Positions 9,091-11,075 of a stretch of DNA of 64,000 nt are shown piece by piece. The DNA comes from Chryseobacterium balustinum (lineage in GTDB: Bacteria; Bacteroidota; Bacteroidia; Flavobacteriales; Weeksellaceae): NCBI RefSeq assembly GCF_900168205.1, contig NZ_FUZE01000007.1:1-64000 (forward strand), given 5' to 3'. The translations under genes and the position numbers were made by a program. The notes beneath the pieces were generated by a model. That model did not search any database, was not told the origin of the DNA, and worked only from the letters and a program-made list of their open reading frames with translations. The number at the start of each line of letters is the position of its first letter. Position 1 is the first letter of the stretch.

Positions 9091-9121
9091 AAATCCTGCC
9101 TTATTTTAGGCAGGATTTTTT
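9091..9121 (+). terminator. intrinsic terminator of guaA
   Basis: AATCCTGCCT pairs with AGGCAGGATT around a TATTTT loop and continues into six T. It lies 24 nt after the guaA stop, between two convergent genes. Confidence 0.88.
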
Positions 9122-9144
9122 GTTTCATTTTAAATTATTTTGAA

Positions 9145-9996
9145 TTATTTCTTTTTCTTCCTTGAAATAATAGATTGTAATATCACAGATATGATGACAA
9201 AAGCTAATCCGAAATAAAATGAAGTATTTACTTCTCGTCCTTCATCAAAAAATAGAAAAGCGATAATAATTGCATAAATAGGTTCTAAATTAAAACTTAA
9301 ATTCACAGTAAAAGCTGAAAGCTTTTTAAGCGATTCAGCAAAAAGTACATACAAACCTACCGTGCAAATTAATGCCAATAATATCAGATAAAATGTGTCT
9401 TTTAAATTAGGAATAAATTGCTCATTTGGAAAGAAGTAATAGTAAAAAGGCAATAAAACGGTCAATCCTAAAGTTCCAGCCAACATTTGATAATAATTGA
9501 TGACTTGACTGTCATATTTCTGAACCAATCTTTCATTGTAAATCGTGTACAATGCTGCAAAAGCTGAAGAAATGACACCCAGAATAATTCCGATTTGATA
9601 CGACGCATCAAAATGAAAAATCAGACTGATTCCCAATAAAGTAAGCGCACTAAGAAAAAGCTGAACAAATTTATACTTTGTTTTGTTGAGTAATGGTTCA
9701 AATATCGCAGTGAAAAAACTGGTCAGGCAATAGCATACAACGCCGATTGAAATATTAGAATATTTTATACTCGCATAAAAAAATATCCAGTGAATGGTAA
9801 TGAGAAGTCCTATTTTTCCAACATCGAAAGCTTCTTTCGAAGACTTGAGTTTTTCAACTTTAAAAATTTTTAAACTCAGAAATAAAAATATACTTGAAAA
9901 TAAAACTCTGTACCAAACCAATGGAATTTCGCTAAGAGATATAAGTTTGCCGAATACGCCGGTGAATCCAGCTAAAAGAACTGCAATGTGCAGCAT
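9145..9996 (-). CDS. EamA/DMT-superfamily transporter
   Basis: This 283-residue inner-membrane protein shows about ten hydrophobic helices in two homologous five-helix EamA halves, the fold of drug/metabolite exporters. Related proteins move amino acids, nucleosides or other metabolites; the substrate cannot be read here. The first helix begins directly at the N-terminus and the C-terminus is basic (ISRKKKK), as expected for a cytoplasmic tail. It is transcribed away from pheA. Between its start and its likely promoter lies a 160-nt leader with a 12-codon ORF and a hairpin (described separately), so regulation by translation of that ORF is possible. Confidence 0.85.
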   Translation of the reverse strand: MLHIAVLLAGFTGVFGKLISLSEIPLVWYRVLFSSIFLFLSLKIFKVEKLKSSKEAFDVGKIGLLITIHWIFFYASIKYSNISIGVVCYCLTSFFTAIFEPLLNKTKYKFVQLFLSALTLLGISLIFHFDASYQIGIILGVISSAFAALYTIYNERLVQKYDSQVINYYQMLAGTLGLTVLLPFYYYFFPNEQFIPNLKDTFYLILLALICTVGLYVLFAESLKKLSAFTVNLSFNLEPIYAIIIAFLFFDEGREVNTSFYFGLAFVIISVILQSIISRKKKK

Positions 9997-10073
9997 TAGA
10001 TATTATTTTTTCATGAAAAAGGTCTTTGCCTGTTAATAGATAAATTGAATGTGATGAAGACACAAAGAGATAG

Positions 10074-10091
10074 TACCAAAGAAATTTGGTA
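10074..10091 (-). promoter_or_regulatory. leader hairpin upstream of the EamA gene
   Basis: TACCAAA (10074-10080) and TTTGGTA (10085-10091) form a perfect 7-bp stem with a 4-nt loop. It lies between the micro-ORF at 10119-10157 and the transporter start. It has no T run on the minus strand, so it is not a terminator by itself. Confidence 0.4.
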
Positions 10092-10118
10092 ATGAATGTG
10101 CTTCAAAATAAGTATTTA

Positions 10119-10157
10119 TTAAGGCGTAGGAGGAGGAAGACAGCTTTTTCTGTTCAT
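10119..10157 (-). CDS. 12-codon upstream ORF (Cys/Pro-Pro-Pro) before the EamA gene
   Basis: On the minus strand, TATATTTG (10182-10175) is followed after 17 nt by an ATG that opens the ORF MNRKSCLPPPTP and a TAA stop. The peptide has one Cys followed by Leu-Pro-Pro-Pro-Thr-Pro. Runs of three Pro are known to slow ribosomes that lack EF-P help. The ORF lies about 120 nt upstream of the exporter start on the same strand. I infer a translated regulatory leader; no TTTG element is obvious upstream of the -7 box, so it needs testing. Chance is the main alternative. Confidence 0.4.
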   Translation of the reverse strand: MNRKSCLPPPTP

Positions 10158-10226
10158 GAATTTCGAATAATGAGCAAATATAATAATAAAATTTGTGAGA
10201 GTTAAAATGACTTGCTCAATATTTTT

Positions 10227-10234
10227 TACATTTG
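10227..10234 (+). promoter_or_regulatory. -7 promoter box abutting pheA
   Basis: TACATTTG ends 4 nt before the chosen pheA ATG. If used, the transcript would start at or inside the start codon, making the mRNA leaderless. No good TTTG element is found 19-21 nt upstream. Confidence 0.45.
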
Positions 10235-10238
10235 TCTT

Positions 10239-11075
10239 ATGAAAATAGCATACCTCGGTCCACAAGCCAGTTTCACACAGTTAGCAGCATCTCAGATTTT
10301 CCCGAGTGAAGAATTAGTTCCTCAGTCGAGTATTTTAGATTGCTTTAATGCGGTGAAAAATAATGAAGTAGATAAAGCCGTAGTTCCTCTAGAGAATTCT
10401 ATTGAAGGAACAGTTTCTATGACCCTCGATTATCTCTACGATTTTGAAGTTTTTATCGAAACCGAATTGGTGATGCCAATTGCGCATCATTTGATGATTC
10501 ATCCAGATAACGAAACTTTTGAGAAGGTCATTTCACATCCGCAAGCCTTGGCGCAGACTTTTCATTTCAGATATGAAAATTTTAAAGATATTCCGTCGCA
10601 GGATTTCAGTTCTACCGCGGCTTCAGCAAAGCTGGTTTCTGAAAATCCTCAGGAAAAATGGGCAGCAATCGCCAACCGATATTCTGCAAAATTGTATGGT
10701 TTAAAGATTGTTCATGAAAATATTCAGGATTTTGAACAGAATCATACCAAGTTTATTGTAATTTCAAAAACAAAATCTGCTTTAGATATTCCTTTACCCA
10801 GAATTTCAGAAAAAACTTCTTTAATCATTACGCTTCCCGAAGATCATGCAGGAGGTCTCCATCAGGTACTTTCAGTTTTTGCATGGCGAAAAATGAATCT
10901 CTCTAAAATCGAAAGTAGAACACTAAAAACAGGTTTGGGAAATTATTTTTTCTTCATCAATGTAGCAAGCGAATGGCATAATGTTCTGTCTCAAAATGCA
11001 ATCGATGAGATTATCTCATTAGGTTCTAATGTGAAATTTTTAGGACATTATAACGAATATGTTGTAGAAGAATAA
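10239..11075 (+). CDS. pheA: prephenate dehydratase
   Basis: PheA turns prephenate into phenylpyruvate in phenylalanine synthesis. From the ATG at 10239 the protein has 278 residues. The catalytic domain begins MKIAYLGPQASFTQLAA, has PLENSIEGTVSMTLD near 50-64, and FSSTAASAKLV near 116-126 in place of the usual Thr-Arg-Phe region. The C-terminal ACT domain (about 190-270) has KIESRTLKTGLG, the Phe-binding ESR motif, so feedback inhibition by Phe is expected. It is the stand-alone enzyme without a chorismate mutase domain. An upstream reading from 10212 would cover the promoter box. Confidence 0.93.
   Translation: MKIAYLGPQASFTQLAASQIFPSEELVPQSSILDCFNAVKNNEVDKAVVPLENSIEGTVSMTLDYLYDFEVFIETELVMPIAHHLMIHPDNETFEKVISHPQALAQTFHFRYENFKDIPSQDFSSTAASAKLVSENPQEKWAAIANRYSAKLYGLKIVHENIQDFEQNHTKFIVISKTKSALDIPLPRISEKTSLIITLPEDHAGGLHQVLSVFAWRKMNLSKIESRTLKTGLGNYFFFINVASEWHNVLSQNAIDEIISLGSNVKFLGHYNEYVVEE

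Follow-up and report, generated by a model that had tools for sequence, protein, structure and literature searches.

A conserved upstream open reading frame in the leader of an EamA exporter gene is a putative translational attenuator in Chryseobacterium and other Bacteroidota

The gene for an EamA exporter in Chryseobacterium balustinum is preceded by a 12-codon upstream open reading frame (uORF) with a Cys-Leu-Pro-Pro-Pro (C-L-P-P-P) core. Our comparative analyses indicate that this uORF is real and that it is conserved over many Bacteroidota, other families and orders included. New relative to the original prediction for this locus is a predicted pairing between the uORF RNA and the start region of EamA. 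We consider it probable that the EamA leader is a uORF-based translational attenuator: unoccupied RNA would mask the start of the exporter gene, which would become accessible when a ribosome dwells at C-L-P-P-P.

In the window, the whole 64,000-nucleotide stretch of DNA that was analyzed, the uORF and the box upstream of it are sited on the minus strand between pheA, a plus-strand gene for prephenate dehydratase, and the EamA gene (Table 1). The original prediction had placed a box, a 17-nt gap, the 12-codon ORF with its stop and a 7-bp hairpin (10074-10091) on this strand, and all were found at those positions. We call the box TATATTTG promoter-like on the basis of TAnnTTTG, which we take to be the Bacteroidota promoter consensus. 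Of 34 Chryseobacterium leaders, 33 have TAnnTTTG at most 40 nt before the uORF, L011 being the exception. A scan of the window leader for sigma-70-type promoters found one, no better than the 1.2 expected in shuffles. A search of positions 9800-10500 against Rfam returned no family for the leader. It gave one sub-threshold match outside the leader, to CRISPR-DR26 (E = 0.11; 24.1 bits versus 39), at 9876-9900 on the minus strand within the EamA gene, which we took as chance. At the other end of the gene, between the convergent guaA and EamA (about 9091-9122), a hairpin flanked by A and T runs (AAATCCTGCCTTATTTTAGGCAGGATTTTTTG) resembles a shared terminator.

Table 1. Positions of the leader elements and the exporter gene in the window.
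Feature	Coordinates	Strand	Basis or remark
Promoter-like box TATATTTG	10175..10182	minus	Bacteroidota type TAnnTTTG; 17 nt 5′ of uORF ATG
Spacer, box to uORF (17 nt)	10174-10158	minus	
uORF, 12 codons MNRKSCLPPPTP + TAA	10119..10157	minus	ATG 10157-10155; TAA ends at 10119
Codons 8-10, Pro-Pro-Pro, presumed pause site	10128..10136	minus	codon conservation
P0 5′ arm, anti-start strand, uORF nt 8-21	10137..10150	minus	prediction and covariation
P0 3′ arm, region 5′ of ancestral EamA ATG (10014)	10015..10026	minus	prediction and covariation
P1 5′ arm, last uORF codons + stop + 6 nt	10113..10125	minus	prediction and covariation
P1 3′ arm, downstream anti-stop element	10028..10042	minus	prediction and covariation
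P2 5′ arm	10097..10105	minus	predicted folding
P2 3′ arm	10055..10064	minus	predicted folding
P3, 7-bp hairpin TACCAAA/TTTGGTA inside P2	10091-10085 / 10080-10074	minus	sequence
Ancestral EamA start ATG-AAA-AAA, here then TAA	10003..10014	minus	relatives: ATGAAAAAATCATAT or close variants
EamA (DMT) family transporter, 283 aa as read in the window	9145..9996	minus	Pfam match

The product of the downstream gene matches Pfam EamA (PF00892) in two stretches (E = 5.1e-31; 108.2 bits versus a cut-off of 28.2). NCBIfam yielded only a sub-threshold match for this protein, to "carboxylate/amino acid/amine transporter" (82.2 bits versus 230.2), and none of the solved structures matched it at E values up to 1. 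The start given in the original prediction, 9996, is indeed where the ORF opens as read in the window, but the aligned relatives open at the ATG equivalent to 10014. At 10014 the window reads ATG AAA AAA TAA, the ancestral start with an early stop, and L003 and L004, the two closest relatives, have ATA where the window has the 9996 ATG. By these alignments, the 9996 ATG is a restart, and the start has apparently undergone a compensated shift of 18 nt (10014-9994, minus strand) away from the P0 arm. The operon context of 112 loci held no clue to the substrate; EamA was the sole neighbor family common to most of them (108/112), and the next commonest was found in 19. Because EamA and its leader are placed in differing contexts at other loci, the gene and leader seem to travel as a single unit. 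In 18 loci with uORF and EamA (e.g., L035, L019), a gene of the VOC type (glyoxalase-like; named by eye) lies on the same strand just 5′ of the uORF.

Conservation of the uORF was assessed in an unbiased set, namely 50 EamA orthologues with upstream DNA from Chryseobacterium and Flavobacterium that were found by protein similarity without recourse to the uORF pattern. A uORF of 10 or 12 codons (12 in 47, 10 in three), ending in [L/I]-[P/S]-P-P-(x-x)-stop, was present in 50/50. Codons 9 and 10 are Pro-Pro in all 50, with the first two bases kept and the third bases variable. Codon 7 encodes Leu in 47 and Ile in three, codon 8 Pro in 45 and Ser in five, and Cys is found in 49, L212 having Leu instead.

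Within Chryseobacterium, a protein search of 118 genomes recovered 34 full-length orthologues (63-100% identity) and four broken or truncated copies (G067, G012, G048 and G116; L036-L039). All 34 full-length genes have the uORF, with its ATG 149-183 nt 5′ of the matched EamA start. Among the broken copies, the uORF was found in L037 and L039, G048 has the motif ∼400 nt before the truncated match, and G067 has none. In 35 leaders (the 34 plus L037) the uORF always has 12 codons and TAA. Cys6 is kept in 35/35 (TGT in 34, TGC in one), as is Pro at codons 9 and 10, again with varying third bases; codon 7 is Leu in 32 and Ile in three, codon 8 is Pro in 32 and Ser in three, and the final two codons are variable. 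Two further Chryseobacterium genomes in our order sample also have the uORF, L097 and L100 (partial gene). In Flavobacterium, 13 of 121 genomes contain the orthologue, and the uORF is present in 12/12 with upstream DNA (L215 being a partial gene); the uORFs MHVAGCLSPPEN and MYTQGLLSPPRF demonstrate that neither the first Pro nor the Cys is invariant. In support of the original prediction, a uORF is kept at the equivalent position before EamA orthologues in 34/34 full-length cases in the genus and 50/50 overall, with the C-x-P-P core in all but the one that has lost the Cys, and the non-conservation that had been named as counterevidence is not what we found.

We also examined more distant genomes. 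A scan of 296 genomes of the family with the DNA pattern [S/N]C[L/F]PPP gave 20 places outside the genus, of which 11 were examined; two lie within a short ORF starting with MN, both of them 5′ of EamA (MNRESCLPPPLRF and MNRLSCLPPPRA). This short pattern is unspecific alone: a reversed control pattern was about as frequent per genome, and 10 of 30 loci examined in the genus were not uORFs. Among 296 genomes of the order, three orthologues from another family have the uORF (MSFKGCLPPPIN, MNRKSCLPPPRF and MNRKGCLPPPRA). The uORF was absent from the 400 nt upstream of 20/20 EamA homologues at 33-41% identity, and also from two homologues at 47-50% identity. A GTDB-wide scan with MxxK[S/G]C[L/F]PPP, a set that is selected by peptide and so indicates spread and not conservation, returned 83 stretches, 67 of at most 20 codons and 16 longer. 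The short matches precede an EamA orthologue in 64 cases; two have no downstream DNA, and one, a Phe variant in a Euryarchaeota MAG, has another neighbor. None of the 16 longer ORFs was seen 5′ of EamA, with one of the 16 having too little DNA for a judgment. The genera named in the scan include Flavobacterium, Pedobacter, Chitinophaga, Olivibacter, Sphingobacterium, Parapedobacter, Rufibacter, Pseudarcicella, Dyadobacter and Chishuiella, among others, and some of the uORFs stop directly after PPP.

To gain insight into the leader RNA, we collected 112 leaders, of which 66 remained as a non-redundant set at <85% similarity; 41 of the 66 came from pattern searches that fix part of the peptide. 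The first 62% of the stop-to-start segment is predicted to be more stable than dinucleotide shuffles (mean z of −2.60, below −2 in 68% of the 66 leaders), and the last 45 nt before the start are barely better than shuffles (mean z of −0.67). Most of the 17 whole-leader folds displayed share a nested plan. On the outside is P0, in which uORF nt 7-24 (codons 3-8) pair with the EamA start region ∼110 nt downstream. Within it lies P1, in which the end of the uORF, stop codon included, pairs with an element more 3′ in the leader, and P1 encloses P2 and P3. On the 5′ side, the Pro9-Pro10 codons separate the P0 arm from the P1 arm. In the window leader, P0 and P1 have 12 base pairs each, P2 nine and P3 seven. 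The 7-bp hairpin of the original prediction is therefore present, but it is just the inner tip of this nested structure, and the pairing between uORF and EamA start had been missed. The RNAalifold consensus for the Chryseobacterium alignment recovered only part of P2 and a short hairpin. An early idea, a switch between a hairpin right after the uORF stop (regions 1:2) and P2 (2:3), became secondary once P0 and P1 emerged. Such a candidate alternative hairpin can be drawn, for example, in L020 (TTCAAATT/AATTTGAA) and L123 (AATAC/GTATT), and would compete with P1 or P2 after termination. Several leaders, among them L134, L151, L160 and L191 (Pedobacter), have an extra hairpin (e.g., CCTGTTTTTAAGAACAGG) directly 5′ of the P0 3′ arm that looks missing from many Chryseobacterium leaders.

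P0 and P1 are both predicted helices that covary, as indicated by swap, shuffle and alignment analyses whose statistics ignore phylogeny. Across the 66 leaders, cognate P0 arms pair with −12.66 kcal/mol compared to −9.88 (sd 0.33) when swapped between leaders, and the corresponding P1 values are −6.52 and −5.00 (sd 0.22); 0 of 20000 permutations was as good in either case. The same was true of 29 non-redundant leaders of the unbiased set, with −10.22 versus −8.05 (sd 0.45) for P0 and −6.70 versus −5.01 (sd 0.31) for P1 (0/20000 each). Swaps restricted to one genus or group gave P0 p values of 0.0001 for Chryseobacterium (n = 22), 0.02 for Flavobacterium (n = 14), 0.0015 for Pedobacter (n = 13) and 0.00005 for others (n = 12), with P1 values of 0.0001, 0.001, 0.017 and 0.019, respectively. 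In Chitinophagaceae (n = 5), neither helix was significant (P0 p = 0.066, P1 p = 0.16). The best partner of the uORF arm in its own stop-to-start segment was the start region in 60/66 leaders. In the reverse scan the best partner of the start region was the uORF (windows at nt 1-14), again in 60/66, with a sharp peak: windows from uORF nt 6-12 averaged −11 to −12 versus −2 to −5 off the peak. The bases of the Cys codon fall within the best pairing with the exporter start in ∼60/66 leaders.

Individual codons covary with the start region as well. The third base of codon 5 and its partner are C and G in 19 leaders, C and A in eight, T and G in one, T and A in 32, and another combination in five. 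The resulting phi of 0.71 compares to 0.09 (sd 0.13) in permutations, the highest of 300 being 0.44; the register was picked to maximize pairs, and the permutation repeats that choice. For codons 4 and 6, Fisher tests without permutation gave 4e-11 and 2e-4, the codon-4 changes being partly amino acid changes. In the TGC (Cys) leaders L126, L166 and L198 the start region has changed in step (TTGCCT with AGGCAA, AGGTAA and AGGTGA), but these are the only 3/8 TGC leaders with a compensating partner in the main register, the other five being without one. In a sequence-only alignment of 44 leaders from outside Chryseobacterium, P0 and P1 are paired in 84.5% of cells, compared to 39-51% when the register is slid (P0 91.7%, P1 76.6%). 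This alignment contains 41 double-change cells versus 17.5 in shuffles (0/500) and 10 pairs with double change versus 6.6 (4/500); its 24 pair types, versus 21.7, are not significantly more than in shuffles (52/500). In the Chryseobacterium alignment, 76.5% of cells are paired versus 37-46% slid, with 90.8% for P0 and only 70% and 58% for the P1 helices.

In a shuffle-matched test of this pairing, the 66 leaders have a mean z of −2.44 (42/66 below −2), compared to 0.08 (three below −2) for 90 other genes of the same loci (Mann-Whitney p of 8e-19). The raw P0 energy is unexceptional: measured against 295 background genes, unmatched and in part GC-rich, only 6/66 leaders lie beyond the 5% tail, and among the homologue controls for raw energy (13/20 usable) one reached −14.3. 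P0 is weak or shifted in some leaders, namely L132, L182, L201 and L212.

We next asked in silico what a ribosome on the uORF would do to this fold. Masking nt 11-41, a 31-nt footprint at Pro9, increased the share of unpaired bases in the start region from a mean of 0.28 to one of 0.49 over the 66 leaders, with a gain in openness of >0.1 in 54/66; in the window leader, openness rose from 0.23 to 0.59. Control masks of the same size, placed at nt 46-76 or at nt 61-91, gave such a gain in 1/66 each. Masking nt 1-24 alone suffices (56/66), and masking nt 25-44 alone does not (4/66). As masking opens the start, these data suggest that the uORF RNA hides the exporter start and that a ribosome on the uORF exposes it.

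The mechanism that we propose is as follows. In the free mRNA, uORF codons 3-8 (nt 7-24) would pair with the EamA initiation region, from about −18 to the start codon, as P0, and the uORF end would pair with the downstream element as P1, closing the domain with P2 and P3, so that the exporter start would be hidden. A ribosome on the Pro codons, with a footprint of about nt 11-41, would cover the 5′ arms of both P0 and P1; the start would thus open and EamA could be translated, with the dwell time at C-L-P-P-P setting EamA output. We infer a ribosomal pause at the Pro codons on which EamA output depends. A signal might lengthen this pause, be it the compound that EamA exports, an inhibitor of translation, or a lack of EF-P or of charged tRNA. 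The original prediction held that stalling on the uORF may alter the folding or read-through of the leader and so control the exporter; control via folding is very probable, whereas the stalling enters as a presumed step. In Flavobacterium johnsoniae, mRNAs have no Shine-Dalgarno sequences and RNA structure close to the start adjusts initiation (PMC6847099), and this fits a direct occlusion of the start.

Peptide and RNA both seem to be selected. Part of the K-[S/G]-C conservation is an RNA effect, given the covariation between the start region and third bases of the P0 arm. Codons 9-10, in contrast, belong to neither helix and remain Pro while their third bases vary freely, which is a coding signal. 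Cys is kept despite a weak or shifted P0 in L132, L182 and L201, and in the 5/8 TGC leaders that are without a compensating partner. A 12-residue chain would remain inside the ribosome exit tunnel.

Two features of translational attenuation are found here, a uORF 3′ of a promoter-like box and start sequestration, predicted in the form of P0. In attenuation as reviewed in PMC5418344 (ermC, cat, cmlA, fexA and Bacteroides tetracycline resistance), a ribosome stalled on a short leader ORF exposes a hidden downstream start. The EamA leader resembles the erm, cat and cmlA cases in having a short leader ORF and a start hidden by leader RNA, and cmlA and fexA are also export genes. It differs from them in that the hiding strand lies within the uORF codons before the presumed pause site and reaches ∼110 nt around a nested domain, and in having no Shine-Dalgarno, a Pro-Pro core and many host genera. 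In Salmonella, mgtQ is an 8-codon ORF whose RNA is in stem-loops that hide the mgtB start and whose translation promotes the transporter (PMC8092293). There too, uORF RNA hides the start of a transporter gene, but mgtQ uses acidic codons and ribosome destabilization, its Pro codon is reportedly dispensable, and its sequence and helix plan differ. The EamA leader would work like erm/cat/cmlA attenuation and mgtQ-mgtB, with a different helix plan.

CutF of Rhodobacter and CruR of Bordetella are copper uORFs with Cys and a Pro motif that exert post-transcriptional control on a downstream gene; in the model proposed for CutF, a stem-loop covers the Shine-Dalgarno of that gene (PMC9973294 and PMC9426467). 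Their products are longer and contain a signal peptide, a CxxxC or CXXC motif and, in CruR, RAPP, and the genes that follow are linked to copper. None of this applies to the EamA uORF; the Pro-rich C terminus (L-P-P-P, or L-S-P-P/I-S-P-P) is shared with CutF/DUF2946. Membership in the CutF/CruR group was rejected, since there is no Sec signal peptide, CxxC/CxxxC or RAPP, and the window peptide has one Cys and that of L212 none. The CutF-type copper analogy drawn in the original prediction is not supported, 12 residues leaving no room for a signal peptide. RAPP-like arrest peptides and uORFs before secA, secDF and yidC also end in a Pro motif, with some Bacteroidota-only clusters ending in N-S-P or N-A-P (PMC10987492). 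Unlike these, the EamA uORF has a C-[L/I]-[P/S]-P-P core without an R-A-P-P-like motif, and its target is the EamA exporter. A literature search, covering titles, abstracts and some passages of open-licence PMC papers, found no prior description of the uORF-EamA leader; a Flavobacterium paper mentions leader-peptide attenuation before amino acid biosynthesis operons (PMC9723704).

Several other explanations have to be weighed against a regulated attenuator. Under unregulated coupling, any ribosome crossing the uORF would open P0, the Pro codons would merely slow its passage and no signal would be sensed. P0 is indeed covered during uORF translation, and the nt 1-24 mask alone opened the start. 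In addition, LPPP stalls weakly in E. coli (PMC4176338), so that a strong constitutive stall is not expected, which argues for either a conditional pause or plain coupling. However, an open frame needs less than Pro9-Pro10 in 50/50, a C-L core in at least 46/50 and a length held at 12 (47) or 10 (three) codons, and the second helix at the uORF end suggests timing; we regard coupling as rather unlikely. Control at the level of transcription, with stalling or its absence altering Rho access or RNA polymerase pausing, has a model in the CruR-type Pro-motif uORFs, proposed to work via Rho (PMC9426467). Here, the conserved helix aims at the translation start itself, and terminator scans of three leaders (the window, L070 and L151) found none on the leader strand, making such control improbable. 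By eye, a few leaders show a hairpin with a T run some 10 nt later (e.g., L070, L148 and L155).

The Cys of the peptide might sense a metal or thiol, as in CutF/CruR, and the retention of Cys in 49/50 of the unbiased set, in three leaders with weak or shifted P0 (L132, L182 and L201) and in 5/8 TGC leaders would agree with this. Yet the peptide is very short and has a single Cys without CxxC/CxxxC or a signal peptide, the Cys codon lies inside P0, where the start region tracks TGC in L126, L166 and L198, and the L212 orthologue has Leu, all of which makes Cys sensing very improbable. The 64/67 short pattern matches that precede an EamA exporter could also be reconciled with a peptide that has a function of its own or is exported, such as a signal or metal chelator that EamA handles, but the last two residues are free or missing while their RNA joins P1, and third bases covary with the start region, which leaves this reading a minimal chance. 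Lastly, 12 codons can occur by chance, as the original prediction conceded, but the 50/50 unbiased orthologues and a spread over Weeksellaceae-type genera, Flavobacterium, Pedobacter, Chitinophaga, Dyadobacter, Rufibacter and others make a functionless chance ORF almost inconceivable.

Extending the attenuator reading beyond this locus, we tentatively suggest, as a possibility that we rate below even, that such leaders are Bacteroidota-wide "ribosome-wedge" switches. In these, a uORF of 10-12 codons would combine a start-site antisense with a conditional arrest core, C-L-P-P-P, and a ribosome held there by the exporter substrate or a translation-blocking compound would pry the start open. If this is true, selection would act on the same bases for the peptide and the RNA simultaneously, in bacteria whose translation begins without Shine-Dalgarno pairing. 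The leader, if it works as an attenuator, would be a conserved native leader-ORF switch of Bacteroidota that is independent of Shine-Dalgarno sequestration. It would make testable what the EamA exporter removes and what makes the ribosome pause at C-L-P-P-P, and the leader could be used as a reporter in a screen for inducing compounds.
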